Below are positions 183 to 21,778 of a stretch of 39,479 nt of DNA, in pieces. Under the pieces are notes generated by a model. That model searched no databases. It saw nothing but the letters and a program-made list of their open reading frames with translations, and had not been told where the DNA came from. Origin of the DNA: Thraustochytrium sp. TN22. Taxonomy: Eukaryota > Sar > Bigyra > Thraustochytrida > Thraustochytriidae. The stretch's first letter is position 1; each line of letters opens with the position of its first letter. Location of the stretch: positions 1-39,479 of the forward strand of contig JABLUY010000296.1 of the NCBI GenBank assembly GCA_013306675.1, in the 5' to 3' direction. A program made the position numbers and the translations under genes.

Positions 183-264
183 CGTCGTTGAACGCAGCAG
201 AAGTGAGACGCGGCGACTCTGCCCTGGCGTAGAGACACCGTCCCAGTGGAGCTTGCCATTCATT

Positions 265-1850: not shown

Positions 1851-1883
1851 GGCCAGGCCGCAACGGGGCTGCCGAGGCGGGAG

Positions 1884-3002
1884 TCAGCCCGGAGCGGTGG
1901 CCGGGGCTGCGTGGAGGACGTCGCTGGAGGCGGTGTTGACCGCGAGGAGGTCCTCGTCTTTGGAGGAGGCGGGGTCGCGCGCGGTGTTGGAGGGCACGAC
2001 GCTGCCCGGAGGGGGCCTTCGTCGAGAGCGAGAGGACTGGTTGTCGGTGACGAAGCGCCCGACGAGCAGGCTGCACATCTCGCAGCCGCACATGGACATG
2101 TTGTACATGGGCGCGTTGAGGAGGACGAACTGGCGCACCCAGGGCCAGACGCAGAAGCAGAGGAGCAGGGCGATGTTGGGCAAGGCGATGCCGAATAGGG
2201 AGAAACGCTTGCCCAGGAAGATGTTGGCGCGCAGACGTTGGATCTTTTGGCGAATCTCCGGGTGGTCCAGGCTGTTGCCCGAGACGTCGAGCTGCAGGGC
2301 GTGGAGGAAGCCGTCCAGGCAGGTGTGAAAGCTGATCCCGATGACGGTGATCATAAATATAGAGCCGAGGCTGAGCGCGATGACCCACGAGTCGTTCTGC
2401 GGCGCGACGAGCATGCCCACGGGGGCCACCGAGGAAGCCAGCACCGAGACTGTGGCCAGGGCAGGCACGTGGCGGCGAACAAAGGCCGTCCGGTGGCGCA
2501 TGGACACCTCCCGCGAGCCGATGCCCAGGACCGCGTTCATGTTGTCAATGAAGAAGCGCACAACCTTGACGAAGGTGACGATGAAGGCGGCACCCGCACA
2601 AAAATACGCGAGCGTCTTGGGCACGTGCAGACCGAAGCCCTCGTAGCGCCAGACCCAGCAGGCGATACAGCAGCCCGCGTTGATGGATGCCAGGGCCAGC
2701 CCCAGCGTGTGGTAGGCGACCGCGCGTGTGAGTGTCTTGGCTGCGCTTGCCCTTGCGCGAGTCACGGCGCGCCGCACCTTGACGAGCTCCTTGGCGCGCG
2801 CGAGCACATTGTACAGGCCCATGGCGAGCGCGAGCGCTGCGAAGACATCGAGCAGCGTGCTGGACACGACGCAGCCGCTGGACACGGTAAAGTCGCCACT
2901 TTGCAGGAAGCCCTCTTGGCACACGCAGCGGCCCGTCGCCTCGTCGCAGCTACCGCCTGGGCACGCCTCGGCGGCCGGCCAGAGCGCCACGCACGCGCTC
3001 AT
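1884..3002 (-). CDS. EGF-like plus 7-TM membrane protein, paralogue 1
   Basis: Unrecognised family, three members in this window. The 372-residue product begins with a six-cysteine EGF-like module (Cys 4, 14, 19, 26, 28, 44). About seven hydrophobic segments follow (roughly 48-66, 97-117, 131-151, 180-200, 205-225, 268-288, 290-314), then a polar basic tail. Positions shared with paralogues 2 and 3 are RANxFxGKR before TM6, W-P-W-V-R before TM7, and a C-x-x-L-V-G-R type motif after TM7. The ATG at 3002 is chosen because all three proteins align from a Met just before the first cysteine. An in-frame ATG at 3197 would add 65 residues including a Leu/Gly stretch. Expected topology is extracellular head and cytosolic tail, with TM1 as a reverse signal anchor. 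A receptor role is inferred only. Confidence 0.75.
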   Translation of the reverse strand: MSACVALWPAAEACPGGSCDEATGRCVCQEGFLQSGDFTVSSGCVVSSTLLDVFAALALAMGLYNVLARAKELVKVRRAVTRARASAAKTLTRAVAYHTLGLALASINAGCCIACWVWRYEGFGLHVPKTLAYFCAGAAFIVTFVKVVRFFIDNMNAVLGIGSREVSMRHRTAFVRRHVPALATVSVLASSVAPVGMLVAPQNDSWVIALSLGSIFMITVIGISFHTCLDGFLHALQLDVSGNSLDHPEIRQKIQRLRANIFLGKRFSLFGIALPNIALLLCFCVWPWVRQFVLLNAPMYNMSMCGCEMCSLLVGRFVTDNQSSRSRRRPPPGSVVPSNTARDPASSKDEDLLAVNTASSDVLHAAPATAPG

Positions 3003-4178
3003 GCCGCCGCCGCCGAGGCCGAGGCCGAGGCCGAGGCCGGCCACAAGCAAGAGGCTCTGTCCCGCATCGCGAGCCTGCGTGCGCCGCAGAACTTGAGAAG
3101 CAAGCGCATCCTTCCTTGCCCAAGGTTGCACGGACACTTGGCGCTGGTCACCGTTCTCTGCGTTTGTCCCTGTGCGCTGGTTGAACGGCTTTCTCATGCC
3201 AGTCCAGTAACGTGCAGGGGCGAAGGAGTTGGAGCCAGATAAGCCAAAGCCAAGCGAAACGGAAGCCAAGCGGAAGCCAAGCGCCAAGCGAAAGCCAAGT
3301 CAGGCCGGGAGGAAGGCGCGAGCTCACCAAGGGCAAGGCTCGGCAAGCACGCCGGCGCAGGGTGCCAGGGGGTCGGTTGCTAATAATAGCATCGGAACCA
3401 CGGAGTTGGTCGGAAGCGGACAACGTGCGCCGGGCCACGCTTCCGTGCGACACGAACAGTGCGCTGGCAGGCTGCGCCGATCTCACTGTCAATGCGACTT
3501 GGTGGGTGCTCATGAATGTTCCGGTAGCGCAGGCCGGTAATCGTGCACACCGAGTGAGTCCCCCGCGCTCTGCCGCAAACAACTCTCTACCGCAAATAGC
3601 GCGCGGAATAAGTTAGCGCTCGTGTGGGGAATGACCTTGGTTTAGGTGAACTCACATGGTGCGCTGACCGCCTCGCGGCAGCGTACAAGAAACGAAGAAC
3701 GATGAGAGCGAGCGCGCTCGGCGACGTCTGCCGCGTTCAAGGAGCAGCGCGTGAACATACGGCGCGTATTTATGCACCGTGAGCTTGGAGGTGCCTGTTC
3801 GGGCAGGACCGCGGCCTGGAGCTGCACGAAGCGGAGACTGACCTCATGCTCCGAAGAAGAGCCGCGTCCATGGTTCGGCCTTGATATCAGGATCTGGTTA
3901 ACACGACGCGCTTGGCGGTGCGCCAGCGTCCTTGGCGACGTGCTGCACATTCACGTTTGCTCGCCATGTTCGCGACACGAAAAGGGCAAACGTCGACAAG
4001 CTGCGTCACGCCCGCAGCCAGTGCTGGCAGTCACGTCTGCATGTATTGCCCACCGCAGCAGCAAATGGGCCACGTGCGTCGCGGCTTTTTTGCCAGTGCC
4101 AACTTGGTCGTGCAAAGGCCCATGATGTGCAGAGCACGCGCTTTTCGCGTCGTCACCGATCGTTTGCTATTCTGAAAA
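3003..4178. other. Intergenic, upstream of paralogue 1
   Basis: No convincing gene. 3003-3060 is a gccgag-type simple repeat just 5' of the chosen start. 3239-3300 is a short imperfect repeat of aagccaagcg-like units about 9-11 bp long. From 3600 to 4178 base composition is less GC-rich, and the short open frames have no coherent protein character. Confidence 0.6.
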
Positions 4179-5417
4179 CTACTCCGCAGGGAACTTGTCA
4201 GTCTTGACGAAACCAGGAGTGCCAAGGCGGATGCAAGCGCGAGCGTGATCGCGGATGCTCTCGTGCATGTCGATGAACTGGAGGCCGAGGTCCTTCTCGG
4301 CCTTGGCGTGGCTGGTACGTGCAGCGCGCTTGCCGACACGCGGGAGGACGGAGGCGACGCCAGAGTCGAAAAAGCTGACGAACCAGAGCAGCGGGTACGG
4401 AAGCGTCCTGGTGGGCGGCTTGTAGCCGTACTGGCGCAGATCGTCGGCAAGCACGCGCGTCATCTCGCTCATTGACATGACGCCGGCCACCATGGCGTAG
4501 CGCTGGCCGGCGGCCGCGGGTGTCTCGAGCGCCAGGCGGTGTGCGCGTGCCACGTCGCGAACGTCGACGCAGCCCATCTCCAGGGCAGGCACACCCGGCA
4601 TCTTGCGCATGACAAAGCGGCAGATGACCTCGTGGCTCGTGGCATTGGCCGCCGACAGCGGCGGCCCAATGATGAAGCCAGGATTGATGACCGAAAGCGT
4701 GAAGCAGTCCGGATTGTCCTCGACGAACTTCCACGCAGCGCGCTCCGCCATCGTCTTGGACCGCGGATACGGCTCGGCAGTGGCCTCGTCGGTCCAGAGG
4801 CTTTCCGGCTCGGCCTCGAGCTCCTCCGTGGAGTGGCCCCCCATGATGGCCGCCATGGAGCTCGTGAGCGCCACGTGCTTGACCGTGCCGGCGTCCTTGG
4901 CTGCGCGCAGCACGCGCAGCGTGCCCTCTCGCGCCGGCTTGTACAGCTTCTCCTCCGCCTCCTCCGGCTTGCAGCCCAGAAAGAACGGGCTCGCCACGTG
5001 CGCCACCACGTCACAGCCCGCGCAGGCCGCCTCCCAGCCCTCGTCGGAGCTCAGGTCGGCCTGCACCACCTCAAAGGCCTCGCCGCTTGCCTTCCACGCA
5101 TCCAGGTGCGTCGCCGACCTACTCGCGTCGCGCACCGTGCCCCGCACGCGGTACCCGGCCTCCAGCAGCTCGCGCGCCACGTGCGCGCCCACGTACCCGG
5201 TCACGCCCGTCACGAGCGCCACGCGCTGCGCCATGGCGGCGTCCACGACCACGAACGACAGCACGACGACGAGTACGACGACGGCGAGGCCAGCGCGACG
5301 ACGGCGGCGCAGAGGACGACTGCACGCGACGCGACGCGACGCGACGCGGCCGACCGACCTCGTGATGAAGTTCTGCGAGCCCCTGGGCTCGGAGTGGCGG
5401 CGGAGCCCGGGCCTCAT
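4179..5417 (-). CDS. Membrane-anchored extended SDR (dihydroflavonol-reductase-like)
   Basis: NAD(P)H-dependent short-chain dehydrogenase/reductase of the extended class, close in pattern to dihydroflavonol-4-reductase and cinnamoyl-CoA-reductase-like proteins. Numbered from the ATG at 5417 (412 aa): a basic Arg-rich stretch then a hydrophobic anchor at about 42-61; the Rossmann motif VTGVTGYVG at about 69-77; a conserved R-G-T-V-R-D segment; the catalytic Ser in LTSSMA near 185; and the YPRSK motif giving Tyr216 and Lys220. NPGFIIGPP follows in the substrate region. The internal ATG at 5234 has a perfect gccgccATGG context and would give a soluble protein starting MAQRVALV. I prefer the longer form because Arg-Arg-Arg plus a Val/Leu stretch is a classic signal anchor, but that choice is uncertain. 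The substrate cannot be told from sequence. Confidence 0.82.
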   Translation of the reverse strand: MRPGLRRHSEPRGSQNFITRSVGRVASRRVACSRPLRRRRRAGLAVVVLVVVLSFVVVDAAMAQRVALVTGVTGYVGAHVARELLEAGYRVRGTVRDASRSATHLDAWKASGEAFEVVQADLSSDEGWEAACAGCDVVAHVASPFFLGCKPEEAEEKLYKPAREGTLRVLRAAKDAGTVKHVALTSSMAAIMGGHSTEELEAEPESLWTDEATAEPYPRSKTMAERAAWKFVEDNPDCFTLSVINPGFIIGPPLSAANATSHEVICRFVMRKMPGVPALEMGCVDVRDVARAHRLALETPAAAGQRYAMVAGVMSMSEMTRVLADDLRQYGYKPPTRTLPYPLLWFVSFFDSGVASVLPRVGKRAARTSHAKAEKDLGLQFIDMHESIRDHARACIRLGTPGFVKTDKFPAE

Positions 5418-7109
5418 CACTAAACTCAAGAAGTGAACAAGCGAACAAGACAAGTTCGTCTTGAGTTCGTGACGTCCGAGGCCTCTCGTGTGTCTTGCAC
5501 CCGCCGTCAGTCACAGCAGCCTTGCGCGGCCACGGTGAGTGCCAGCGAGCGCGTGCGCAAAACCCCGCGAAAGCTCGACGTCAAGAGCTCTGTCTGCGAC
5601 GCCTCCGGGGCGGGCGGGCGAGCGAGGAGGCCAGCGGGCAGCCAGACTAGCTAGCTATCTGCAGCAGAGCTGGCAGCAAGCTCTCCATGGCGCCGAAGTC
5701 ACGTGGCTCAAGCCTCAAGGAAGTCATCCTGTACGTCACTCGGCGATCAAGATGCCGTGAACAAGAACCCGAAGCGAGCGAGCCGAGCGAAGCCGAGCGA
5801 GCGAACTCACAGCGTGACTCACGCGCAGGAAGAAAGAAGCTTCAGCCAGCGACGGCAGCGAGCCCCGAGACCGTTCGCAATAGGAGAGCAAACGGCGCAG
5901 GACAGCCGGCGACGTAGACGTCACTGATTGATTGAATGGCCACGTGCGCGCAATGCGCTGCCAAGACGTGCCACGGCGGCGGCGAAAGCCTGAGCCATCC
6001 ATCACCAGTGCGGCGCGAAGCAGGCCGAGTCGTCGCTTGTGACAGCGGCATTTCCACGTTCGGTTCCATGCTTGTGCGGCGTAGTTCCGAGCTCCTCCGT
6101 ACAGCTGACCTTGCAGTGCTCGCGGTCATAGCGGCGCGCATCGCGCGTGGTCTCCCGCGTCGGCACGTACAACGCCGGGGCTCGAGTCGCTCGACGCACG
6201 AACCGTGGCGTCCCAGCCAGCGAGCATAGACCGCCCTCGTCCGCGCTCACTGTCACAATGCGGTCCGCCAGACTCGCGCGCGATCTGCGCGCCCACGAGC
6301 GCCACGCGCTGCTGGTCCCAGGCACCCACGACGAGAACGTACTCGACAAGCAGCAAGAGCAGCAAGACGACGACCACGCACGACAAATCCGCGCTGGGCG
6401 GCGAGGCGGGCGACAATGAATCTGCACTGGCAGGGCTTGGACTCGCGCGCGCTCGCGGACGCTCGTGTGCACGGGAGGCACCTCAGCAGCTCAGCTCAGG
6501 CTCAAGGCCGCCGTGCAGCGTTGGCCACGCCGCGCAAAGCTCGAACGGGTCCTTCGCCGACGGCGACAGCCGCAACGGGCAACGGTGGAGGTACGAGCGG
6601 CTCCGCGAGACCTGCCCCGTGCTCCACGTCTATCTCTCGCTCCGGGTCGCTCGCGCGCAAAGGCTTGCAGAGGTTTCCAGCCCAGCGTCGCGAGTCAGCG
6701 GCCGGACATCCTTGTCCCGGCCACCAGCGAGGACCGTCACAGTCACGGTGGTAAGGGTACGAGCAACTTGGAGCAAGTCGCAGTCGCGCCCGGCCAGGCT
6801 CCGCGCGACGCGCGCGGACCGCCAGTTGCTGTAAAAGTGCAAGCGGTGTTCTCCCGTGGGTCGTGATGCCATGATGAATGGTTGTGCGTGCTCTCAGCGC
6901 TCTAGCAGCGCTCTCAGCGCGCGCGTGACTCTGCCTCGACAAGCTGAGCGAGGCGGCGCGCGCCCGTCTAACTCCGACGCTCCCCCGGCGGGGCCGCTGC
7001 CTCCTGGCCGCGAGGCAGAGGCTGGCGAGCCAACAAAACCCAAACGCTGGCAAGCGGGCGCAGCTCGGTCAAATTTTGGCTTTATCGAACCTTCGTTTGG
7101 CTCGGAACC
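5418..7109. other. Intergenic with SDR relic
   Basis: 1.7 kb between the divergent SDR gene and the gene at 7110. It holds a decayed SDR fragment (about 6255-6405) and gcgagcgagccgagcg-type short repeats near 5770-5805. I see no coherent gene; several frames are open but their residues are those of GC-rich random sequence. Confidence 0.6.
6255..6405 (-). pseudogene. Decayed fragment of an SDR N-terminus
   Basis: On the minus strand this reads a Val/Leu anchor, then QQRVALVGAQIARE. That parallels the anchor and AQRVALVTGVTGYVGAHVARE of the SDR gene at 4179-5417. The DNA is visibly related (gcgcgcccacg, then agcgccacgcgctg), but about 21 bases that would encode the nucleotide-binding TGVTGYVG loop are missing. 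There is no ATG and no downstream catalytic region. It lies 5' of the intact gene in the same orientation, as expected for a relic of a tandem duplication. Confidence 0.5.
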
Positions 7110-8191: not shown

Positions 8192-9388
8192 TCATGATCC
8201 TTCCAATAAGTTTGTTTCTGCTGGCGCGTCGCTGATGCTGAGGACGGGTGTTGAGCTCGCTGGAGTGACCGAGACCGGCGCCACGGAGCTGGAGGCCGTG
8301 TGCGCCGACGCGGCGGCGCTGCCAGTGGCGCCTCGATTCCAGATCGTTGCGACGAGCCCCGTGCGGTAGGTGCGCGTGCGAGAGTAGCTTGTGGCCGAGA
8401 TGGTACGGAGCTGCCGGGCCACGGCCCGCGCCGTGACGAGGCGGCCAATCTGGCAGGTGATTCCCTCCGCCGCGCAGGCGCTCCCGCTGCAGAGTGCCAC
8501 GTGCAGCACGATGAAGCCACGCAACCAAGGCCAGGCGAGGATGGCCACGTTGAAGCCAACGTTGACGACCGCGATGCAGACCGCCGCGCGACGGCCAAGG
8601 CGCGCATTCGCAATGAGGTGCTGCACGCGCGCGCGGTCCGCCGTGGACAAGGACGCCAAGCTTGACAGCGAGCCCTGCAGGCTGCTCTCGAAGCCCTGCA
8701 ACGCCTGCACGACAAAGTACACCGCCACAGCGATGGTGTAGATCATAGACGAGGCCAGAAGAACCTGCCAAAGGTCCTCGTAGGCTGGCCACAGGTAGAG
8801 CCCCCAGGGCGTCACAACGTGGAGCACCACGGCGCCCACGCTCGTAAGCGGCGAGGCGTAGCGCCGCACGCGCTCAATGGCCGCATTGGTACGAAGCATC
8901 GTCACGTCCGCGATGGCCACCATGTTGTCCAAAAAGAAGTGCGTCACCACGAAGACGTACGGCCAGAAGCTGAGTCCACCAAACGTGTGCATAGCCGTCT
9001 TGAGCGGGTCCTCGCCCACCTTGGCGTCGCGCAGCGCCCAGTAGCCAGCCGCGTTCGCCAGGACGCCGCCGCTTGTCAGCAGTCCCAGCACGTGGTACTT
9101 GTGCGTGCGCACAAACGGGTTCACGCCCTTGCCGCGGAAGCGCGTCTTGAGCGTCTGCATGCGCCGCACCTCGTGCAGCCGTAGCGCGAACTGTACCGCC
9201 GCCTGCGCCAGCGTACCAACCAAGATGACGTGCAACAGCAGCCGCGGCACCACGCAATCCTGGCTCTCGCTCAGCTCAAAGTCCCCACCCGACAGGTACG
9301 CATCCTCGCACGCGCACGAGCCCGCCACGCACGAGCCGTGGCCCGAGCACGCCTCAAAGGGCCAGCGCGCCGCGCACGACGTCGGCAT
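8192..9388 (-). CDS. EGF-like plus 7-TM membrane protein, paralogue 2
   Basis: 398 residues. The EGF-like module spans residues 5-45, with six cysteines and the classic CSGHGSC turn. Seven hydrophobic segments lie at about 49-69, 99-119, 138-160, 180-200, 206-230, 267-289 and 291-312, followed by a Ser/Thr-rich cytosolic tail. Close to paralogue 3: both have KYHxLGLLTS at TM2, PWGLYLWPA after TM4, AWPWLR before TM7 and EGxTCQIGR at its end. An in-frame TAG directly precedes the ATG at 9388, so without an intron the protein cannot carry an upstream signal peptide. The EGF-like head must then be exported by TM1 acting as an N-out signal anchor. Function unknown; the architecture resembles an adhesion-type receptor, but no canonical GPCR motif is visible. 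Confidence 0.78.
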   Translation of the reverse strand: MPTSCAARWPFEACSGHGSCVAGSCACEDAYLSGGDFELSESQDCVVPRLLLHVILVGTLAQAAVQFALRLHEVRRMQTLKTRFRGKGVNPFVRTHKYHVLGLLTSGGVLANAAGYWALRDAKVGEDPLKTAMHTFGGLSFWPYVFVVTHFFLDNMVAIADVTMLRTNAAIERVRRYASPLTSVGAVVLHVVTPWGLYLWPAYEDLWQVLLASSMIYTIAVAVYFVVQALQGFESSLQGSLSSLASLSTADRARVQHLIANARLGRRAAVCIAVVNVGFNVAILAWPWLRGFIVLHVALCSGSACAAEGITCQIGRLVTARAVARQLRTISATSYSRTRTYRTGLVATIWNRGATGSAAASAHTASSSVAPVSVTPASSTPVLSISDAPAETNLLEGS

Positions 9389-9886: not shown

Positions 9887-11365
9887 TTAGCTTCCGCCAC
9901 TACTGTGCGTACGGCGCACGCCGCACTCTTGTTTGTGAGGAAGAAATCGCTGGCTCGCGCTACGGCCTTGGAGAACCGGGTGCGAGGGTTTGCGGGCGGG
10001 CTCGCCGTGGTGGCGCCAGCCTTCAGCTCGCAAGACAGCAGGCGCGTCGTTGTATTCGGGTGTCAGCATTAAGCGTCTTGTGGATCGTCTCCATTCAAGC
10101 TGCGCCACTTGGCTCTGGAGCGACAGGTCGGTCACGGAAGATGAAGAAGACGTCCCGACGGACCTGGACTTTTCAGCCAGCGGTGCTGGGGCCACAGAGG
10201 CTGAGACGGCAGCGTATAGCTGGTAGCTGGTCACCGAGGGAGTACGAGATAGAATTCGGTCAGGCGCGATTGAAGAGGTGTTGGAGTCCATCGTCAGATC
10301 CTGCCTGCACAGGATGAAGGAGGAGCTGGCGCCGGGCGCGCGGGTACGGGCGCGCTTGAGCTGACGATCCGTGGCCATGCGGCCGATCTGGCACGTGACG
10401 CCCTCGGCAACGGTGGCACCAGCGCTGCCAAAGGCAACTTGAAGAATTCCAAAGTTGCGGAGCCAGGGCCACGCGCAAAGCGCCATATTGTAGACGAAGC
10501 TGGACACGGCAATGCTGAGCGCCATGCGCTTGCCGAAGATGGCGTTGGCGCGTACGCGCGCCACTTTGGCTCGGTCGTGAGCAGGAAGCGAGGTACTTGA
10601 TGTGAGCGCCTGGCCAAGGACGTTGGCGAAGGAGCGCAGCGCGATGGCGAGCAAGAATCCGGCGAGCATCGTCGTGAACATGAAGGACCCGGCCGCCACA
10701 AGCTCCCATCCGGTAGCCGGCCATAGGTAGAGGCCCCAGGGCGCGATGATGTGAATGCAACAGGCACCCAAGGTGACGAGAGGCTCGCCGACGCGCTGCG
10801 CTCCCGCAAAGGTCCTGCTCGGTGCCCTCACGACCGAGCGGCAGCTCTTGCTCCCGCCGACGCTGTAGCTTATGCGCCTGGCGACCCTGCTGGCGAAGAT
10901 CTCGTTGTTGCGCGTGAAGAATCTGAGCACGTAGATGAGATACGCCCAGATGACACCACCCGCCGTTAGCGTTGCTGTCTTGAGCGCATCTTCGCCTACA
11001 CGTCTCTCGCGTAGGCGCCAGAACATGTAGTTGCAGGCCAGGATGACGCTGCTCGTGAGCAGACCCAAAGCATGGTACTTGTACGTCCGCAAGAATGGAT
11101 TGGGCCCGCGCCCGCGGAAAGCAGTCACCAGAATCCGCGCACGTAGCAGCTCTCGGACGCGCATGAGCACGTTCAGCACGGAAATGGCCAGCGTCAAGAG
11201 CAACTCGGCATGCAAGGCGGTCTCGGGCACTGCGCAGTCTCTGCCCTCGTGCAAAAAGAAGTCGCCGGAGGACAGGAAACCCGCCTCACACGTGCAGGAG
11301 CCCGTCGCCTCGTCGCACGTGCCATGGCCAGAGCACGGTCCCATCGGCCAGCGCGACTCGCACAT
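9887..11365 (-). CDS. EGF-like plus 7-TM membrane protein, paralogue 3
   Basis: 492 residues from the first in-frame ATG at 11365; the frame is open a little further upstream but without an ATG. The EGF-like module has cysteines at 2, 11, 17, 24, 26 and 44. Seven hydrophobic segments lie at about 49-69, 98-116, 131-150, 195-215, 221-243, 280-300 and 304-323. A long Ser-rich cytosolic tail of about 160 residues is roughly twice that of paralogue 2 and could carry phosphorylation sites. The loop between TM3 and TM4 is about 20 residues longer than in paralogue 2. It shares KYHxLGLLTS, VGEDxLKTA, APWGLYLWPA, RANAIFGKR, AWPWLR and TCQIGR with its relatives. The stop is about 500 bp upstream of the paralogue 2 start, same strand. 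Confidence 0.78.
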   Translation of the reverse strand: MCESRWPMGPCSGHGTCDEATGSCTCEAGFLSSGDFFLHEGRDCAVPETALHAELLLTLAISVLNVLMRVRELLRARILVTAFRGRGPNPFLRTYKYHALGLLTSSVILACNYMFWRLRERRVGEDALKTATLTAGGVIWAYLIYVLRFFTRNNEIFASRVARRISYSVGGSKSCRSVVRAPSRTFAGAQRVGEPLVTLGACCIHIIAPWGLYLWPATGWELVAAGSFMFTTMLAGFLLAIALRSFANVLGQALTSSTSLPAHDRAKVARVRANAIFGKRMALSIAVSSFVYNMALCAWPWLRNFGILQVAFGSAGATVAEGVTCQIGRMATDRQLKRARTRAPGASSSFILCRQDLTMDSNTSSIAPDRILSRTPSVTSYQLYAAVSASVAPAPLAEKSRSVGTSSSSSVTDLSLQSQVAQLEWRRSTRRLMLTPEYNDAPAVLRAEGWRHHGEPARKPSHPVLQGRSASQRFLPHKQECGVRRTHSSGGS

Positions 11366-12138
11366 GGTGCGCCCCTTGCGCGTCGCGCGGCGCGTCCTGA
11401 GCGCCCTGCGCGTCGCGAATGGCAGTCCCGCGATTCCGATTCTGCTCGCTCGCAGAACCCGGCATCCGACCACAGGAGCTCATGATTCGCCAAACGATTC
11501 ACACTGGCACTAACACGGGCACGGGCACTGCCCGCCTTGGCCTGTTCTGTCCCGCTTACTCGCCCGCCTCCTCGGAGCCACTTTCCGTCCGAGCCACCAT
11601 CCTGCCTCACCTTGACCGGGCCAGGCAGGCCCGGCAGGGGAAGGCGCTTCTGAGCCTTGCGCCGCAAACCAGGCTCTCGGAAACGGCACGGCGAACAGAC
11701 ACGGCCTGGTGAAACTTCCGTGGGAAGGAAAGGTAGGAGCGCCCGGCTCCGTCCAAATTCCCGCAAGGCAAGGCTGAGGCGGCAGGTCTATCGCCGCAAC
11801 GGCTCCTTCTGCCGCGCACAGCGCGAGAGGCTCAGAGCGCGAGCCAGCCCCTAACCGTCGCACGAGACCATGTCGACACAAGCCGTTGCAGCGCGTACAA
11901 CAGGAGCACCGGGCGCGGAGGCGCCGAAGCGTCAAGCGAGCTAGCGTGTGCTGGCTCCAGCCCTGCTCAAGCGATCGGCGCACAACATCTTTATCGATTT
12001 GGAGCCTGAGCATGAGGCCTCGTCAGGCGAGAGAGATGTGCGCCAGGAGACTGGGGGCCTCGCCAAGGACGCAAGGCAGAGACACTGGTCGTTACGAAGG
12101 TCAAAGATACGTAGGTCAAATAGTTTGTGGGCCAAAGA
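11366..12138. other. Intergenic between ROCO-TIR gene and paralogue 3
   Basis: Both neighbours are on the minus strand, so this holds the 3' end of the ROCO-TIR gene and the promoter of paralogue 3. It includes copy B of the duplicated flank (11780-11900). 11950-12138 is less GC-rich and probably 3' untranslated or terminator DNA of the ROCO-TIR gene. No gene seen. Confidence 0.55.
11780..11900. repeat. Duplicated 5'-flank block, copy B
   Basis: Counterpart of 9620-9745: cgccgcaacggctcct, then a gcgcgagcca stretch, then atgtcgacacaagccgttg. It lies about 415-535 bp upstream of the paralogue 3 start. The right-hand motif is the best conserved part. Confidence 0.65.
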
Positions 12139-15100
12139 TTATTGCGTTGGCGTGATGACTTCCTTGATGCGATTTGCAAGTCGCTCAATGGCGTCCGTCC
12201 TCGCCTGGCCATCCCTCCACATGCTGGTGTAGAGCGGACTGCCAGTGAAGCAAAAGCCAAAGGGTCCCTCCCACACGTCCGTATTGCTCATGTAGGCCTC
12301 CAGCACACAAGGGATCATGCGTGCAACCTTGTGCCTCTTATGGATGTAGCGGAACTCGTCCCGACAATTGCTGTTTTCGCCATCGGGAATGTTCACCTTT
12401 CTCATGTACTCCCTCGAGACGAAGATGACGCTGGCTTTTGACATATCGATCCCCCTCGCCATAGCCGTCATAACATCGCCACGGACCTGCTCCTCGTCGA
12501 GCCAGCACTTTATATTGTGCACCGTCTTGAGTTTATTGGCAACCTCTTTGACGAGCCTGTGCGTCTCGAGGCCTTCGCCCCATGAGTGAGAGAGGAAAAC
12601 ATCGAAGGGCCGGCTCCCGACAATACTGGAAGAGAGAACTTTTCCCTCAGTGACGTTGCTGTCGTCGCTGGAGGCGTTAGCACGTTCGACGCCCCGGGCA
12701 ATGTCCGTGCGTACTTCATTTGCCTCCTGTCGCATAGCCGTGAAGACCTTAAACTTTGCAACGGGAATGCGGATGCTGCTGGTCTTGTCGCGAGACTCGA
12801 CGCTTGAGCCGGTGGCCTCCTTCGCAAGATCACTGAAAGTCGCGCACTTGCCGGGCACATCCGTGCCGTCCGAGCTAAGGACAAGGCACGGCTTGAGCTT
12901 CCCCTTCATGAATTCTGCGTCGATCCGTTGGACCCCCCTTTCGAGCAGCTGGACGTGGTTGGTCAACGGCTGCCCGTCGAGAGGCACGAATCGAAGGATG
13001 ATGCGTTTGCTGTCTGCCTCGCACATGGTCTCGACGGAGCCAAACTTGATGCGCATGGCGTTCGTGAAGACCGTACGGACCTTGACCTGCCCGCGGAGTG
13101 CTTGCACGAAATCCGAGACAACGCGCTGGAAGACGCCCCTCGGCAGAATTGCAAACTCAATGAACGCCACCGCCTCCTGGCCATTTTCAATGCTTGCACG
13201 CAGATCGAGCCGCTGTTGCTCGAGATCCTCGGTGCTTGCAGTCCTGAGCAGGCTGGGCACCAGCAGAGCATCCTTGTCATCGACTTTGTCGCCAATCCCG
13301 GGGCTTGGGCTGGCCAGCAGCATGGACTGCATCAGGTTCACCAGGTACTCCTGCGCGACCGGGTCCTTGTTCGGCTCGCCACCCGGCACATTCGACCAGA
13401 GCCACGTGTACAGCGGCCTCGAAGCCACACCTCGGTCCCTGAGCTTCATGAACTCTTTCTCCAGCTTGGAGGGGAGTTTCTGACCGAAGAAAAGCCTCTC
13501 TTGGTGCACTTCCATGTGCAGACGGTCGCAGATCACGCGAGACAGCTTCTCAAGCAGCCACTGTGGCCGAATCACCACGATTTGACGGAGTTCCTCGACC
13601 CTCCAGAGGTAGATCAGCACGCCCACCTCGTGCATGAACTTGAGCATCTCCTCAAAGTCGTCCTTTCGAAGTCCACAGTCCTCGCGAGCGTTCGACAATG
13701 CTTCGTCATCTAGTTCCAAGTACGGCCGGTGAGGCAAAACCTCACGCCGCAGCTTGTTCACGCAGAGCGTCCAGCGCAGTGACACCTCCATCTTGACAAA
13801 GTCCTTGTCCGTGACGGCCTCGACCAGCAGTGCCCGCAGGCGATCGACGCGGCCGTCCGCTCCCGTGCGGTCCGAGTTGTCGATGGGGAAGAAGTACAGC
13901 TCCTCTTCCTCGTTTCGTAGGATGTCCGGCCTACTCACGCCAACGGTCTCCCTCAGGTAGTCCTCAATGAGGTCCGTGAGAAGGATCTTTTGAATCTTTG
14001 TATGCTCGTCCTTGCTTGGCACCTGGTCCAGAAAGGTCCCGACCAGAACGACACTCGCTTCCGGTGCGTGGAGGCTAATCGAATCCAGCCAGAAGCGAAG
14101 GGTCTCCAGCGCCTGCTTTCGGGTGGCGGTGACGCGCTCGTCCTCGGTGGGCTCGTCCTCCGTGGAACTTCCCTCGAGCACGCCCTTGCCTAGCACCTCG
14201 CGCATGTCGAAGGCCAGGACGTAGACGCCGTAACGCGTCAAGAAGAGATGGTGCAGCGCGTAGAACACCTCCTGGCCACCGTAATCCCAGATGGTGAAGG
14301 TGACCTGATCGTTGACCTTGTCACCCTCGCTGTGGATTCGGGCTACGATTTCCCAGTCGTACGCTTCAGCCACTTCATCATGCTCCAGCTTCGTGGGTTG
14401 GACGCTCTGCTGTTTCGCCTGTGTGTCAGTGGTCGCCTCTTCTGGGACCTCCGATTCTCTCTTCAGTTCAGGCGGCAGCGTGGACGGCTGTCTTGGCGTG
14501 CCTGGCTTGCTCGACTGCTCGAACTCCGGGTCTGGGACGCGCACTTCCACGCCTCTGGAGAGGTGCTCACGAAGATTCGGGATCGTTTCCTTATCTTGCT
14601 GCGGCGTCCAATTTCGAGAGTGCGTCAACTCAAGGTCGATGCCGATGGTGGACACGTGTTCCGGATTGAACGGCAGGTCCAGGAGCGTGTTGATGGTTGA
14701 TGTCTTGCCGGTGCCGCCATTGCCGATGAACATCAGCTTGGCGTGCCCCCAGTGCACCTTCTTGTCGTAGTCGACGGCCGAGCGCGCGCGGGCGGACCAC
14801 TTGGTTCTCATGTTGCTGTCCAGCCGCGCCTTGATGCGGCTCAGGACGCTTGCCGAGATACTCTCGTTCATCGCCAGGTCGAGCTCGTGCAGCCGAGCCT
14901 CTGCCTTTTCCAGAGCGTCCGCGAGCTTCTCCGCGCCCCCTTCGCCAATCTTGTTCATTGTCAGGTAGACCTCACTCAGGTTGGGGTTCTGCGTGAGCGC
15001 AGCGGCGAGCTTGATGGCGCCGCGGTCTTTGATGTTGTTGTACTGGAGGTGCAACACCTGCAGGCTGCGGTTTTTCTTGATGCCTTTGGCGAGCTCGTAC

Positions 15101-15381
15101 GCGCCACGGTCACCGATCTTGCAGGACACCATGTTGAGCCACTTGAGCGATGGATGGCTCGCGAGCGCATCGGCCACGTGCGCGACCGCGGCGCCGTTGA
15201 TCTTGACGGCGCCGAAGCTGAGATGCGTCAGCGCCGTGCTCTCCTTGACGGCAGAGGCGAATGCCTCGACCTGCTCGTCGCTGATCTCCTCGAGCTTAAG
15301 CGCGAGCTTCTCCACGCCGCCCCTGAGCAGGGCGATCGCCTCGTCCACGCTCACTGCTGTCTTGCCCAAGGTCGCCGCCAT
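12139..15381 (-). CDS. LRR-Roc-COR-TIR protein (ROCO family)
   Basis: 1080 residues from the ATG at 15381 (aacATGG context); the frame is open 49 codons further but lacks family character there. Domain order: RI-type leucine-rich repeats about 45-185 (units such as LQVLHLQYNNIKDRGA); Roc GTPase about 211-530 with P-loop GNGGTGKT at 220-227, switch motif WDYGGQE at 365-371 and VGTFLD at about 447-452 in place of NKxD; COR about 530-830, including IVVIRPQWLLEKLSRVI at about 601-617; TIR about 923-1080 starting RPFDVFLSHSW, with CWLDEE at 959-964. A Ser/Pro/Glu-rich insert (about 280-335) splits the Roc domain. By eye, the helix position that holds the catalytic Glu in NAD-cleaving TIRs is not Glu here (near Ala973), so a scaffold role is possible. 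Divergent from the vWA gene pair. Cytosolic signalling is inferred. Confidence 0.9.
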   Translation of the reverse strand: MAATLGKTAVSVDEAIALLRGGVEKLALKLEEISDEQVEAFASAVKESTALTHLSFGAVKINGAAVAHVADALASHPSLKWLNMVSCKIGDRGAYELAKGIKKNRSLQVLHLQYNNIKDRGAIKLAAALTQNPNLSEVYLTMNKIGEGGAEKLADALEKAEARLHELDLAMNESISASVLSRIKARLDSNMRTKWSARARSAVDYDKKVHWGHAKLMFIGNGGTGKTSTINTLLDLPFNPEHVSTIGIDLELTHSRNWTPQQDKETIPNLREHLSRGVEVRVPDPEFEQSSKPGTPRQPSTLPPELKRESEVPEEATTDTQAKQQSVQPTKLEHDEVAEAYDWEIVARIHSEGDKVNDQVTFTIWDYGGQEVFYALHHLFLTRYGVYVLAFDMREVLGKGVLEGSSTEDEPTEDERVTATRKQALETLRFWLDSISLHAPEASVVLVGTFLDQVPSKDEHTKIQKILLTDLIEDYLRETVGVSRPDILRNEEEELYFFPIDNSDRTGADGRVDRLRALLVEAVTDKDFVKMEVSLRWTLCVNKLRREVLPHRPYLELDDEALSNAREDCGLRKDDFEEMLKFMHEVGVLIYLWRVEELRQIVVIRPQWLLEKLSRVICDRLHMEVHQERLFFGQKLPSKLEKEFMKLRDRGVASRPLYTWLWSNVPGGEPNKDPVAQEYLVNLMQSMLLASPSPGIGDKVDDKDALLVPSLLRTASTEDLEQQRLDLRASIENGQEAVAFIEFAILPRGVFQRVVSDFVQALRGQVKVRTVFTNAMRIKFGSVETMCEADSKRIILRFVPLDGQPLTNHVQLLERGVQRIDAEFMKGKLKPCLVLSSDGTDVPGKCATFSDLAKEATGSSVESRDKTSSIRIPVAKFKVFTAMRQEANEVRTDIARGVERANASSDDSNVTEGKVLSSSIVGSRPFDVFLSHSWGEGLETHRLVKEVANKLKTVHNIKCWLDEEQVRGDVMTAMARGIDMSKASVIFVSREYMRKVNIPDGENSNCRDEFRYIHKRHKVARMIPCVLEAYMSNTDVWEGPFGFCFTGSPLYTSMWRDGQARTDAIERLANRIKEVITPTQ

Positions 15382-16663
15382 GTTGGCGAGGAAGGGAGCG
15401 TGGTGCGAACGACGTCTCCAGAGCGTGTTTCGCTGGCGCCCGAGACAGGCGCGCCGCGCGAGTGGTACGCGCTGTGCGACGCCAGCCTCGCTTGTCCTTC
15501 TTAGCCCGACCCCGTCGGCCGCCTGCAACCCCTCGTGTCACCGTGAGGCGCTCCGCACGCGCGTTGCCGCGCAGCGCGCGCGGGAGCCACCGAGGCCCGG
15601 ATGACCGAGCAGAAAAGGGTCTGGCAGACTCTCTGATCAGAGAGAGCACTGCTCATGTCGTCATTCAAGTTCACGGAAGGGCACTGGCAGGCTGGCAGTG
15701 CAACTCGGACAGACCGCCACAGGACCCGCCAACTTGCAGGCCGTCGCATCGACTCGCACACCAACACAACTCTCCGAGTCAGAGACGCAGCGCGGCTTCG
15801 AGGAAGCGACGGCAGCTGCGTCGTAGGCTCGTAGCCGTCACTTGCGGCTCAGCCTTGCGCAACTCCGCGAGGCGGCGCGTGCCCCACAGCCTTGCGACGC
15901 AGTTGCCTGGTCCTGTTGCCAGTCGGCTACTTGAGGAAGTTTTCGATTTGCGTGGCGGGCCCACAGCTGATGCTGGCACGCGCCAGGCGGCCCAGGCCGC
16001 AGCACTTCAAGTCATGGGCGCCTGACTCTGGCCGAGTCCGAGTCCGAGTCACGGTCTGTTGGCGGCGCGCGCATTCCGAGTCGGCGTGCGGATCCGGGCG
16101 GCGGCCGCCGACGTGGGCCAGTGCTTGACCGCTACTGAGCCAGTACTACCGCCTGATCGCTGCCCGGGGCATCTGCGGCAGGCTTGCGAGCCTGCACTGC
16201 AGGCGCCTGCAGCCAGCCTGCAGCCAGGCTCCGTCCCTAGAGAGTGTCTTGGGCGGCCCGGCCGGGCCGGCCGCCCACTGGCAGTGCACTGCAGGCTGCA
16301 GCCTGGCTGCTGCCATTGATTCGAGTCGATCAGTCGTGATCGATCGCGGATGCTGCATCATCGCGTGAGTTTCCGGCGGCCGCACTCGGGCCAGGATCGC
16401 ATGCGGCGCGGCGGCTGTGGCTTTGCGCAGGCAACATGAACAGGCCTGGTAACTTTGTGGCCTTGCGACGACTGCAGGCTGGCGACGACCAACTATAAGC
16501 TTAATTTGCAGCCTGCACGATGAACTTGAAGCGGCCACTGGCACCGTGGACGCAAGGCCTAACTTACTGAGATACACACCCCTGCACGCATTGGTAGCTC
16601 TGCAATGCGGTGGCTAGCCCACGGGCGGCCAGGCAAAACCCAATCGCTGAGGTGCAGGCAACC
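15382..16663. promoter_or_regulatory. Divergent intergenic region, ROCO-TIR and vWA1
   Basis: 1.28 kb between divergently transcribed genes, so it must hold both promoters. 16030-16055 contains three gagtc-type steps. 16190-16320 is dense in ctgcag-centred palindromes and imperfect inverted repeats. 16320-16350 has overlapping gatcgatc/cgatca motifs. No TATA box can be named with confidence, and no gene is seen. Confidence 0.45.
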
Positions 16664-18706
16664 ATGGCCATCATCAACAGGGTGAGCGGGCGAGTGCCGG
16701 GCGTGCTGAAGAAGTTCGCGCTGACCTGCGCGAAGCAGCTACCACTGGCGAGAAGCACTCGATATGGGGGCGGCTCGCAGGGACAAGACCCTCAGGCTGC
16801 GCGACTGGACGAGGTTCAGATCGAGTATTCCACAGAGAGATCTCCGACGCATGTGGCCGAGGCGCACCTGTGGATCATGGACTTCAGCGGCTCCATGAAC
16901 GGGCCCTTCGAGGATGGAGACTACAACCGTCCCACCCTCAAGTACGTGCAGGAGTCGAAGGAACGCTTCACGGAGTGGATCGACACGCTGGACCTGAACA
17001 AGGATGTCTACATTTGCGTTATCAAGTTTGTGGACACCGCGGAGCCCCTCACACGCGACGGCTTCGTGAAGTTAACGCGGAGCTCAAAGGCAGACATCAT
17101 CAGCTCTGTCGAAGGCGCCAGGGTTGGCGGTGGCCCAACCCACATGGTGCCGGCGCTCGACATGTTTCAACAGTTCGAGGCCAAGCTCGCAGAGCGCTTT
17201 GCCACGGACCCGAGCCGTGCCCCTGGGCGACTCCACATGCACATTACCAGTGACGGCATGGTGCATGATCGCGAGCAGGCCGCCCCCAGGCTCCAAGACT
17301 ATGTTGAGGAGGTGCATGGTATGCTCAAGGGTCGACTGACGCACTTGGACAACCCTGCCGAGGGAACGTCCCATGTTTTCCTTTCGGCATTCATCAACAG
17401 CTACGTCATCCACTACTCGGACGACAAGAACAGCATCCACGACTACGCCATGGCGGTCGACTTCTTTCGGAGTCTCTACAAGAATGGCGCCATCGGCATG
17501 CTCCATTTTGCAGAAGGAGAGGATGAGGCCATGCACGAAGCTCGTCATGTAGATGGCTCCGGCGCAATCTGCGTCATGGAGTTGTCCATACCTGCGGACC
17601 GCCGCGACGAGCTCGTCTTTGATTTCTCGGAGAATCCGTTTCTGAGCGACGTGATGGAGATCTTCGAGTGCAGTGAGCATACATGCAAGGTGGCACTCTA
17701 CATGGGCGAGGGTGGACGTCCCTACCGCGTTGCCGTCCCCGTGCGGCGCACCAGCGACCTTGCTGAGCCAGAAGAAGAGTACCAGATCATGACAGCGTCG
17801 CTCCGGGTCATTCGGAACCTGATGGAAGAGCCAAACGAGAACGTCCTCCAGCTCGACTTGTTCTCGAGCCGCAGTGGAACTGCGTCGCAGCCGGCACATG
17901 TGGATCCTGCCATCACTGCCACCAGCGGCAGTCGGGACTCCGCGCGAGACCTTCGTGACGCTGAGGACTTGCTGTACGAGATTCCTGGTCAAGAGCCTGG
18001 TCAGGTTCAGCGCCAGCTCAACCGCCTTGAGGCGACGCAGAGCACGAGAGAAAGCGCTCAGAATCGCAGGTCGGACCTCAGGAGCTTGACCCCAGAGTCG
18101 GGCGGCAGTCGACAGGGATCGCGAGGGCCATCTTGGGACCCGCATCAAGAAGTCCAAATTGTGATCGGACTGCTCGAGTTCGTGGTCAAGGAGCTGGAGA
18201 GGCCCACCAAGGGAGAAAACAAGCTCACGAACGCGGACGCGGCCATCCTCCTCAACCGCGTGCGCCATGCTATTGAACTCAAGGAGGTCCCTCCTGACAT
18301 CGCTTCTAAGGCAGGTCTGGAGGCGACCTTGCGAGGTCCTGACACTTACAGGTACAAACCGGTGCCTGCAGGTCTCATTCAGTTCGTCTCCATGCGGCGT
18401 AGCGCGAGCAAAAGATTTAGCACCGTTAAAGCGGTGCTCACGGACCACGTGAAGCTCGCGCGCGAGTCGACGCGCATCCACGTGCTCACGTACTTCGCGC
18501 GACAGGATCCGGACCAGCGCAAGGAGGCCTGCGAGTGCGAACAAAGCTGTGGAGGCTGCGGAGATCGAGATGAACACGGCGACTGTCTCGGCAACTGCCC
18601 CTGTGGCGACAATCTCGTATATTCCGACAAGTCCAAGCCGAAAGTTGATGATAGCTTTGAGAGCAGCGACGAAGAAGGTGAGGACGACGAGTTGGAAAGC
18701 CCGTAA
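16664..18706 (+). CDS. vWA-domain protein with C-terminal cysteine module, paralogue 1
   Basis: 680 residues from the ATG at 16664 (accATGG, strong Kozak context). Residues 1-30 contain a short conserved leader, VPGVLKKFALTC. A von Willebrand factor A domain spans about 65-270, with the MIDAS metal site DFSGS at 73-77, a Thr in GGPTHM near 159 and ITSDG near 194. A beta-rich region covers about 295-400 and a Ser/Arg-rich linker about 400-490. A helical segment (about 495-615) precedes a cysteine cluster with Cys 623, 625, 629, 632, 641, 645 and 647 around GCGDRDEHGDCLGN, then an acidic tail. No signal peptide, so the cysteines probably bind metal rather than form disulfides. The pair with the gene at 19805 arose by duplication. 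vWA domains bind partners through a metal; the partner is unknown. Confidence 0.85.
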   Translation: MAIINRVSGRVPGVLKKFALTCAKQLPLARSTRYGGGSQGQDPQAARLDEVQIEYSTERSPTHVAEAHLWIMDFSGSMNGPFEDGDYNRPTLKYVQESKERFTEWIDTLDLNKDVYICVIKFVDTAEPLTRDGFVKLTRSSKADIISSVEGARVGGGPTHMVPALDMFQQFEAKLAERFATDPSRAPGRLHMHITSDGMVHDREQAAPRLQDYVEEVHGMLKGRLTHLDNPAEGTSHVFLSAFINSYVIHYSDDKNSIHDYAMAVDFFRSLYKNGAIGMLHFAEGEDEAMHEARHVDGSGAICVMELSIPADRRDELVFDFSENPFLSDVMEIFECSEHTCKVALYMGEGGRPYRVAVPVRRTSDLAEPEEEYQIMTASLRVIRNLMEEPNENVLQLDLFSSRSGTASQPAHVDPAITATSGSRDSARDLRDAEDLLYEIPGQEPGQVQRQLNRLEATQSTRESAQNRRSDLRSLTPESGGSRQGSRGPSWDPHQEVQIVIGLLEFVVKELERPTKGENKLTNADAAILLNRVRHAIELKEVPPDIASKAGLEATLRGPDTYRYKPVPAGLIQFVSMRRSASKRFSTVKAVLTDHVKLARESTRIHVLTYFARQDPDQRKEACECEQSCGGCGDRDEHGDCLGNCPCGDNLVYSDKSKPKVDDSFESSDEEGEDDELESP

Positions 18707-19804: not shown

Positions 19805-21778
19805 ATGCCAGCGGAGCAGGGTATCGCCTCGCGGCGTGACATGGAGAATGGCAGGGTGATAGACGGCTCGCTGCCTGGGCTGCTGCAGCGCTTCGCGGTG
19901 ACGTGCGATTACCAGCTCCCGATGAACGCGTGCACGCGAAAAGTGACGGTAAGTTACGCGTGGAGTCGCTTTCTGAGACCCGACGTGGAGGCCGCGAGCG
20001 CAAGCTTGTGGATCATGGATTTCAGCGGGTCGATGTCCACCGTGGACAACGGCATCCAGCTTGCGGATGCTTCGAAGGAGCGCTTCAAGGAGTGGATCCT
20101 CCAACAGGATGTCCACAAGACGTCCTTCCTGTGCGTGATCAAATTCGAAACCACGGCGCACCCCATCACCGACGGCTTTGTGCGGCTGACGGAGGAGTCG
20201 AGAGCGGAGATTCTCGAGGCGGTGATGAACATTGAGATTGGCGCGTCCACCAACATGGTTCCTGCGCTGGACCTGTTCCTGGAGGCCGAAAGTGCCCTCG
20301 CGCAGCGCCTGATCGACGAAAGGGTCCGGGCGCCGCTCCGGCGACTCCACATGCACATCACTAGCGACGGGTATGTGCACGATCGCCGGGATGCCATTCC
20401 GCGGCTGAAGCAGTATGTGGAGGAGGTGGATGGGGTCCTCATGGAAAGGGCGCAGGGCGGTGTGCCTCAGGACGGGCACGTCTTCCTTTCCACGGTCGTG
20501 AACGGGTACGCCATCCTCAACCAGGTGGGCGCGGTGGCCTTCTTCAAAGACCTCTTCGACGTGATCCCGACTGGCAACCTGTGGACCCGCGACCCGCTCC
20601 AGGCTGGCGGCTACGAACGGACGATCGCCAAGGCACGCCACGTGAGCGGGTCGAACGAGGTCTGCCTGCTGGAGCTCGCCATCCCAGAGCAGCGCCGAGG
20701 CGAGGTCGAGTTCGACACGTCCGTGATTGCGCGGAGCCTGCCTCAGGACATGAACCGTATGGAGGTGAGCGCGCACAAGATCACTCTGCTGGTACCGATG
20801 CAAGACCCTGTGTTGGTGCCGTCACGAAACTTTTCGATCCAGCTCACCTTTTTGACTCAGCTGGAGGAGGCGAGCCACGAATACCACTTCATGGACGCGA
20901 CCTTCAAGACCGTCCAGACGGAAGATGAGATGGTCCCCGAGTCGCGCGACAGGGAGCTTCACCTCGTGGTAGCCACGGAGCGCAACTGGGATCGCGATGA
21001 GCTGCCTTCAAGGCCTGCCATGGTCGTCGTCTCGGAGTCCCGGGAGCAAGCCAGGGACGCCACTTCTGAGGCTAGCGGCGTCCTCCAGCGAAGCGGCGGC
21101 AGCGCAGCTAACAGTGTGCGACGGGCACGGGACCGCCGGAGCGCAAGTGAAGTTCTCACGCGGAACAGGGACGCGAGCGAACATGACCCGCAGGCGCGGC
21201 AATACCAAGAGGTGCGGGTGTCGATGGCGCTGCTTGAGGCTGGCATCACCCGGCTCCAGCGGCCTCCGGAGGAGTTCTCCAACGAAGAGGCTGTTCTCTA
21301 CCTTGACGCGATCGGTCACGCGATCGATACGATGGAGGTCTCTGCGGAGCTCATCCAAGATGCACGTCTAGGGGAGTCAATGCACACCATGACCGGTGAG
21401 GCGATCGTCCGAGTCAGGGAGGTTGACGCGGCCCACGAGGCTGCGTCTCGCGGAGCGCGCGCAGCGCACGGCATTTTCGGCCTGGTCGAAACGCGGCGGA
21501 GGGCTCAGCGCAACAATCGCTGGAGCAACGCCAAGATGATTGTGCGGAACTTTGTGAAGCGCAAATCGATGCAGAGGCGCGTGCTGACCCAAATTAAGAA
21601 GCGCGAAGCCTGCGTGGCGAAGTGCAGCACTGCCTGCGCCCATTGCGGCGACGTCGACTTGGATGGGGTCTGCATGGGTAACTGCAGCTGTGGCGAGAAC
21701 ATCGAGTATGTGGACAGTGATGAGGAGCGCGAGGATGATCTCGACGTCATTTCCGAGGGCGACGATGACGAGCATTGA
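19805..21778 (+). CDS. vWA-domain protein with C-terminal cysteine module, paralogue 2
   Basis: 657 residues from the ATG at 19805; the ATG at 19841 aligns better with the paralogue 1 start and is an alternative. Same architecture as its neighbour: leader LPGLLQRFAVTC; vWA domain about 65-265 with MIDAS DFSGS at 72-76 and ITSDG near 186; beta region; Ser/Arg linker; helical segment; cysteine cluster Cys 603, 607, 611, 614, 623, 627, 629; very acidic tail. The spacing C-x3-C-x2-C-x8-C-x3-C-x-C is the same in both paralogues, and D-x-D-x-x-G-x-C lies inside it. Long stretches such as RLHMHITSDG and FxGSM-type motifs are conserved, while the linkers have diverged freely. No membrane segment. Likely cytosolic or nuclear. 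Confidence 0.85.
   Translation: MPAEQGIASRRDMENGRVIDGSLPGLLQRFAVTCDYQLPMNACTRKVTVSYAWSRFLRPDVEAASASLWIMDFSGSMSTVDNGIQLADASKERFKEWILQQDVHKTSFLCVIKFETTAHPITDGFVRLTEESRAEILEAVMNIEIGASTNMVPALDLFLEAESALAQRLIDERVRAPLRRLHMHITSDGYVHDRRDAIPRLKQYVEEVDGVLMERAQGGVPQDGHVFLSTVVNGYAILNQVGAVAFFKDLFDVIPTGNLWTRDPLQAGGYERTIAKARHVSGSNEVCLLELAIPEQRRGEVEFDTSVIARSLPQDMNRMEVSAHKITLLVPMQDPVLVPSRNFSIQLTFLTQLEEASHEYHFMDATFKTVQTEDEMVPESRDRELHLVVATERNWDRDELPSRPAMVVVSESREQARDATSEASGVLQRSGGSAANSVRRARDRRSASEVLTRNRDASEHDPQARQYQEVRVSMALLEAGITRLQRPPEEFSNEEAVLYLDAIGHAIDTMEVSAELIQDARLGESMHTMTGEAIVRVREVDAAHEAASRGARAAHGIFGLVETRRRAQRNNRWSNAKMIVRNFVKRKSMQRRVLTQIKKREACVAKCSTACAHCGDVDLDGVCMGNCSCGENIEYVDSDEEREDDLDVISEGDDDEH

Follow-up and report, generated by a model that had tools for sequence, protein, structure and literature searches.

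The window analysed here comes from contig JABLUY010000296.1 of Thraustochytrium sp. TN22 (assembly GCA_013306675.1; 39,479 nucleotides, positions 1–39,479 of the forward strand). At positions 12139–15381 its minus strand carries a gene for a protein of 1080 residues, P0001, in which leucine-rich repeats (LRRs) are followed by a Roc GTPase domain, a COR segment and a C-terminal TIR domain. With a confidence somewhat above even, we interpret P0001 as an NLR-like intracellular receptor in which the LRRs would act as the sensor, Roc-COR as the switch and a NADase-competent TIR domain as the output; we regard this as the best reading because of the size of the family to which the gene belongs and the variety of its LRRs. 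The domains and their motifs, a glutamate at the catalytic position of the TIR domain, the family size, the splice signals flanking single LRRs in paralogs and the variability of LRR positions 2, 3 and 5 can be read directly from the sequence. The initial annotation of the gene had likewise proposed an NLR-like sensor; its view that Roc-COR occupies the place of NB-ARC or NACHT stands, whereas its suggestion that the catalytic glutamate had been lost does not. Judged by its domains, P0001 is not an NLR; its anatomy is NLR-like.

Domain architecture and the predicted TIR active site

The reading frame starts with an ATG at 15381 and stops at 12139; it is open over 1132 codons and encodes 1080 residues. 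Paralogs in the same genome match P0001 across most of its length with 42–49% identity, and these long matches, together with the 1132 open codons, make a chance origin of the frame implausible. In a Pfam scan in which the curated cut-off of each model was applied, P0001 scored above the cut-off for LRR_6 (7.1e-15), Roc (6.3e-17), COR-A (PF16095, residues 537–712; 2.4e-9, with 37.7 bits exceeding the cut-off of 35.3 by a modest margin) and TIR_2 (2.3e-13; 51.1 bits against a cut-off of 28), and a second TIR model, PF01582, stayed below its own (18.9 against 21.3). The LRRs, the Roc P-loop and switch, the COR segment and the C-terminal TIR domain named in the initial annotation are thus borne out by Pfam and by motifs, and the domain search that it had suggested found Roc, COR-A and TIR_2 at the expected places. 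With Pfam, neither NB-ARC nor NACHT was matched by P0001 at E values up to 1. On its sequence P0001 is a ROCO protein, with a Roc domain containing P-loop and switch II followed directly by COR, and the LRR-Roc-COR-TIR architecture is secure at this level. The features, all on the minus strand, are as follows.

12139..15381, minus: LRR-Roc-COR-TIR coding sequence, 1080 residues in a single open frame, stop included; full-length match in the own-genome search
14857..15315, minus: five LRRs of 28 residues, fused in one frame, of RNase-inhibitor/NLR type (residues 23 to about 175; LRR_6)
13867..14751, minus: Roc GTPase region (residues 211–505; Pfam Roc, and Ras at 7.3e-9), outer limits chosen by us
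14701..14724, minus: G1/P-loop GNGGTGKT (residues 220–227; motif)
14635..14652, minus: candidate G2 STIGID (residues 244–249; position in the sequence)
14332..14619, minus: Pro/Glu/Ser/Thr-rich insertion of about 95 residues between candidate G2 and G3 (residues 255–350)
14269..14289, minus: G3/switch II WDYGGQE (residues 365–371; motif)
14026..14037, minus: candidate G4 TFLD (residues 449–452; position in the sequence)
13246..13773, minus: COR-A (residues 537–712; Pfam PF16095, same place in the genome-wide COR-A search)
12682..13245, minus: region after COR-A, presumably COR-B (residues 713–900; similarity to family loci)
12142..12612, minus: TIR domain (residues 924–1080; TIR_2, profile matches to the solved TIRs Cat1, 3h16, AbTIR and plant TIRs)
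12355..12357, minus: codon of Glu1009, aligned with the active-site residue E74 of Cat1 (sequence alignment)

The LRRs start at residues 23, 51, 79, 107 and 135, with a period of 28 residues. Compared with PDB chains, the N-terminal part matches RNase inhibitors at the top, with NLR LRRs also present, and the middle part matches LRRK2 and chains labelled 'Rab family protein', which we take to be bacterial ROCOs. STIGID and TFLD are assigned from the Roc motif as the presumed G2 and G4, respectively. Of the other ROCO loci, 31 have a letter at the position of Asp366 in switch II, and 30 of them keep the aspartate. Residues 535–900 are 32–43% identical to 18 other loci with the same kind of TIR domain; residues 713–900 have no Pfam match of their own, and the name COR-B is presumptive. 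The TIR domain carries the motifs RPFDVFLSHSW at residue 924 and KCWLDEE at residue 958. NCBIfam gave no match, no relative was found on viral contigs, and the PADLOC anti-phage models gave only a partial match (PDC-S66, 136–216 of 282, over residues 911–995).

A profile built from 14 TIR domains of this genome, that of P0001 among them, was compared with the PDB. The CRISPR-associated TIR NADase Cat1 is the best match (3.9e-6), followed by SEFIR chains (5.1e-6) and by bacterial TIRs at 1.5e-5 and weaker; AbTIR matches at 3.4e-5. Counted along the profile alignment, S7, H8, D33 and E74 of Cat1 are aligned with S931, H932, D962 and E1009 of P0001. In Cat1 the active site is lined by residues from two TIRs, the first contributing S7, H8, N9, N10, D33, S68 and E74, the second K121 and Y122; the N10A, D33A, S68A, E74A, K121A and Y122A variants are all impaired in growth arrest, and D33A shows a partial loss of activity in vitro (PMC12162218). 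The initial annotation had judged the catalytic glutamate to be apparently replaced near Ala973; the alignment places it 36 residues further on, at E1009 in NCRDEF, and loss of this residue is rejected. Glutamate occupies this column in all 51 aligned TIRs of the genome, a set that comprises those of the 123 TIR_2 matches that the collected loci cover and includes near-identical copies (the TIR at C288:29556 lies outside the listed loci and was excluded), and alanine occupies it in two of two bacterial TIRs. The sequence thus favours a TIR domain competent as an enzyme, and an NADase output is likely. When the P0001 TIR alone serves as query, 3h16 comes out first in the PDB (E 0.018), with an alignment that ends before E1009.

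The ROCO-TIR family and its predicted LRR exons

The genome-wide searches covered the same assembly (37.9 Mb, 453 contigs) exon by exon, and the resulting domain counts are lower bounds. COR-A gave 46 matches (42 above the cut-off, best 52.9 bits) and TIR_2 gave 123 (114 above the cut-off). For 36 of the 46 COR-A matches a TIR_2 match lies 535–1003 bp downstream on the same strand, and a tblastn match to residues 909–1074 of P0001 adds a 37th pair at C215:26266. NB-ARC gave two matches and NACHT eight, one of them below the cut-off (NPHP3_N and other STAND NTPase families are outside this count). Set against the 46 COR-A matches, these numbers agree with the proposal in the initial annotation that Roc-COR takes the place of NB-ARC/NACHT.

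By eye the TIR domains fall into two kinds, a P0001-like kind (C-x-x-E-F) and a shorter one. In a Roc-COR tree of 37 loci (the 42 collected, minus four shorter than 600 residues and a PDZ protein), the 19 with a P0001-like TIR are set apart from all others by a branch whose support is 100/99; the fusion to this kind of TIR therefore looks inherited rather than made repeatedly. N-termini vary within the family: the LRRs are fused in the window gene and in C188, C402 and C398, and a second TIR precedes Roc-COR, giving TIR-Roc-COR-TIR, in three loci, C288b and C215b according to Pfam and C288c on inspection. Nine proteins were scanned with Pfam, and the other TIR proteins among them contain ARM, PDZ, NPHP3_N with WD40, NPHP3_N or a Mind-bomb SH3 match, NPHP3_N being present in two of the nine; C403_3537 is by Pfam a PDZ-TIR protein with neither Roc nor COR. 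On C331 (L029) a TIR 43% identical to that of P0001 is fused to ARM repeats of LRRK2 type, and on C403 (L032, L075) one 55% identical is fused to a PDZ domain; the TIR module therefore moves between proteins. A large frame on C242 (L079), with two TIR stretches, a match to the NPHP3_N NTPase and many WD40 repeats, represents another NLR-like architecture. C160 carries six consecutive TIR_2 matches on the plus strand (192–5666), a tandem TIR array in which four matches (1247, 2290, 3333 and 4376) are 1043 bp apart, each with one in-frame TGA.

In many loci, among them C53, C77, C86, C406 and C421, single LRRs lie separately upstream of the Roc exon, often in different frames, with edges of the form cag/C CTT ... 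/GTGAGT or GTACGT. Phase-2 exon signals (AG and GT) flank 32 of the 51 LRR cores in the collected loci; at each of 13 control offsets the count is 0, 1 or 2. The candidate exons are mostly 87 nt (16) or 84 nt (14) long, with one each of 90 and 93 nt. Two are probably spurious: C86:69163 (93 nt) belongs to the Roc exon as its last LRR, and C11:294939 is preceded by an LRR in its own frame; 30 of 51 remain after their removal. Seven further cores have an acceptor only and 12 have neither signal, 11 of the latter being fused repeats of C217, C188, C402 and C398. Upstream of a same-strand COR-A match lie 25 of the 32 candidates, the two probably spurious ones included, in 11 loci, and seven of these loci are COR-A-TIR pairs (C11b, C406, C53, C77, C85, C86 and C99). 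Splicing of the single-LRR exons to Roc is predicted from these signals. The exon pattern including the acceptor occurs at 63 places in the genome, against none for the reversed control. The exons of C321 are spaced by 315–316 bp directly before the ROCO match at C321:167786. Long arrays of near-alike LRR exon starts are also found at C149:53464-55396 (spacing 311–318 bp) and C379:288-1881 (301–321 bp), on contigs without a COR-A match, and LRR exons are therefore also used, or stored, outside ROCO genes.

Exons 1 and 2 of C86 are 88.5% identical and the introns that follow them 94.4%; six codons differ between the exons, and five of the differences alter the residue, at LRR positions 2, 3, 5, 8 and 27. 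One recent exon–intron duplication is evident here from the sequence. Across 53 distinct matches to the LRR pattern, positions 2, 3 and 5 of LxxNxI take 15–17 kinds of residue and positions 8 and 9 take 8 and 10, the other positions being fixed or nearly so by the search pattern. The three highest entropies are also at positions 2, 3 and 5 in both length classes (31 exons from the loci, with C85 excluded and one spurious exon included). These positions are presumably exposed on the LRR arc.

The ratio of nonsynonymous to synonymous substitution rates (dN/dS) is below 1 in all nine close pairs, which were picked by hand (0.22–0.67 for Roc-COR, 0.07–0.42 for TIR). For the region before Roc it is 0.42 in C288a/C288c and 0.31–0.41 in three other pairs, and was not computable in the rest, apart from C288b/C288c with 1.14. 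The latter value does not concern LRRs, as the region before Roc in this pair consists of a partial TIR and a repeat. Formal evidence that the LRRs are under positive selection is therefore lacking.

Proposed function and alternatives

In the proposed mechanism, the N-terminal LRR arc would sense a ligand and Roc-COR, a GTPase and dimerization module, would serve as a nucleotide-dependent switch, with assembly probably driven by GTP. Activation would gather the C-terminal TIR domains into an assembly that may cleave NAD+, leading to its depletion or to a messenger of the cyclic ADP-ribose type, and from there to defence or cell death. One Roc-COR-TIR chassis would be joined to variable N-terminal sensors, which in many members would be built from spliced phase-2 exons, each holding a single LRR, in arrays that expand by duplication and diversify. 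The genome search gave no match to chlorophyll-binding proteins, which suggests that the organism is not photosynthetic. More tentatively, and short of an even chance, we propose that this non-photosynthetic, probably single-celled protist has a combinatorial repertoire in which LRR-exon arrays and some N-terminal TIRs lead into Roc-COR and a NADase TIR, shuffling and perhaps alternative splicing diversify the sensors, and the ROCO does the job that NB-ARC/NACHT does in plants and animals.

Roc-COR serves as the switch in LRRK2, the Parkinson's protein, and TIR outputs are known downstream of plant NLRs and of CRISPR CARF proteins. If the receptor reading is true, Roc-COR would be a main-line switch of immunity in a protist, given some three dozen Roc-COR-TIR genes of which several have LRRs, and two stories would be joined: that of the brown-algal LRR-ROCOs with single-LRR exons, which have no known output, and that of the TIR enzymes, which have a known one.

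A number of observations weigh against the receptor reading or parts of it. In the TIR domain, N9, N10 and S68 of Cat1 are not conserved; among the profile alignments displayed, Cat1 alone reaches the glutamate column, those to 3h16 and 7uwg ending short of E1009 and those to SEFIR chains placing no glutamate. Seven of the 32 candidate LRR exons do not belong to the tested ROCO genes, and four of the 11 loci with upstream LRR exons (C11c, C121, C285 and C421) have no TIR_2 match. Introns are more alike than exons in C86 only; C53 shows the opposite, with exons 63–78% and introns 44–67% identical, which reflects an older history. LRR positions 20 and 22 are nearly as variable in the 84-nt class. 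The four pre-Roc ratios of 0.31–0.42, from pairs with LRR or unknown N-termini, reveal no excess of change, with dS mostly high. Brown-algal LRR-ROCOs are candidate immune receptors that lack TIR, and their immune role is unproven (PMC11378527). Finally, the LRRs of the window gene are fused in one frame instead of lying one to a phase-2 exon, which makes it an atypical family member, and its branch in the Roc-COR tree is long (0.81); for both reasons it may be atypical or retired.

The alternatives overlap with one another and their probabilities do not add up to one. We consider it rather unlikely that these are ROCO proteins that signal in feeding, chemotaxis, stress or self-recognition and not in immunity, with the TIR as output. 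Dictyostelium ROCOs act in chemotaxis, cell division and development (PMC4104024), in brown algae many ROCO genes are responsive to stress of other kinds (PMC11378527), and a phagotroph could recognize its prey through LRRs; yet the family is large, is recently duplicating and concentrates its variation in the sensor. Large, sensor-varied families of this kind are, we presume, seen more typically among receptors for immunity or recognition. Somewhat less probable, and unlikely in our view, is a TIR that acts as a non-enzymatic assembly adaptor in the style of Toll-like receptors and MyD88, with Roc-COR driving a scaffold to which other TIR proteins are recruited. The 123 TIR_2 matches, which include ARM, PDZ, NPHP3_N and WD40 fusions, would offer many potential partners, but adaptor TIRs generally lack the catalytic glutamate that is present at this position in all 51 aligned TIRs, and the solved relatives found by sequence include NADases.

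A retired or processed copy, in which LRR exons were fused through an RNA intermediate and the gene is now drifting, would explain the intron-free LRRs of P0001, given the single-LRR exon signals in 11 other ROCO loci, as well as the long branch; a Tetrahymena study, in which LRR exons fused by retrotransposition were expected, reported a single possible case (PMC6564038). We regard it as improbable: the 1080-codon frame and the G1, G3 and TIR motifs are intact, LRRs are likewise fused within the open frames of C188, C402 and C398, and C11c has a frame with two LRRs. That the gene stems from bacterial contamination, or that its domains were concatenated by chance, is very improbable. LRR-ROCOs are common in prokaryotes (PMC11378527), but paralogs with splice signals are spread over many contigs of this assembly, and searches of bacterial DNA, which were not sensitive surveys, gave little: an endosymbiont genome with two matches to the TIR only, and one weak match on a Nostoc plasmid. 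Contamination is rejected on account of the paralogs with predicted introns.

The window carries two further sets of related frames. The plus-strand frames at 16610–18706 and 19805–21778 adjoin one another, have weak von Willebrand A matches (below the Pfam cut-off) and are tandem paralogs, 34% identical over 712 aligned positions. Three minus-strand frames at 1884–3287, 8192–9388 and 9887–11473 have weak EGF-like matches, one above a Pfam cut-off, and share 29–43% identity; they make up a local family beside the ROCO gene.

Comparison with known systems

Plant TIR-NLRs combine an LRR sensor, a P-loop switch and a TIR output, and P0001 has all three in common with them; its LRRs, of RNase-inhibitor type, resemble those of metazoan NLRs. 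It differs from TIR-NLRs in having Roc-COR instead of NB-ARC/NACHT, and the order is reversed relative to plant TIR-NLRs, with the LRRs first and the TIR last. Cat1 shares the TIR residues S7, H8, D33 and E74 aligned above, but it has a CARF sensor, is triggered by cyclic tetra-adenylate and splits its active site between two TIRs of a filament (PMC12162218). A TPR-ROCO-TIR protein of Chondrus crispus likewise joins Roc-COR to TIR, with TPR in place of LRR and in a genome with five ROCOs in total (PMC11378527), and TIR is listed in a figure legend among the domains of Trichoplax Roc-COR proteins (PMC4104024); the passages on Chondrus and Trichoplax in these two articles mention no single-LRR exon arrays. 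The 90-bp LRR genes of Tetrahymena have in common with the present family one LRR per phase-2 exon and tandem duplication of exon–intron units, but their exons are exactly 90 bp and the available text of the article mentions neither ROCO nor TIR (PMC6564038).

A close parallel is offered by the LRR-ROCOs of the brown algae Ectocarpus and Saccharina, with LRR-Roc-COR, variable LRR sites and single-LRR phase-2 exons, as signalled in the paralogs here (PMC11378527). According to Teng et al. (2024; PMC11378527), the brown-algal LRR exons are 72-bp phase-2 exons except in groups 3 and 4, four concave sites are under positive selection, and families number 9–47 genes, compared with 46 COR-A matches here; among SAR relatives of the brown algae, those that are unicellular are stated to have at most four ROCOs. 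LRR-Roc-COR without TIR is the sole arrangement described there for brown algae, whereas in this genome the exons are mostly 84 or 87 bp long, a TIR accompanies most COR-A loci and the LRRs of the window gene are fused. Searches of mostly non-subscription literature did not turn up an expanded family with the LRR-Roc-COR-TIR architecture, which is weak evidence of absence; in Kaur et al. (2020; PMC7159879) and PMC8195603, Roco appears in the reference lists only. ROCO-TIR proteins and exon-shuffled LRR-ROCOs were each already known.

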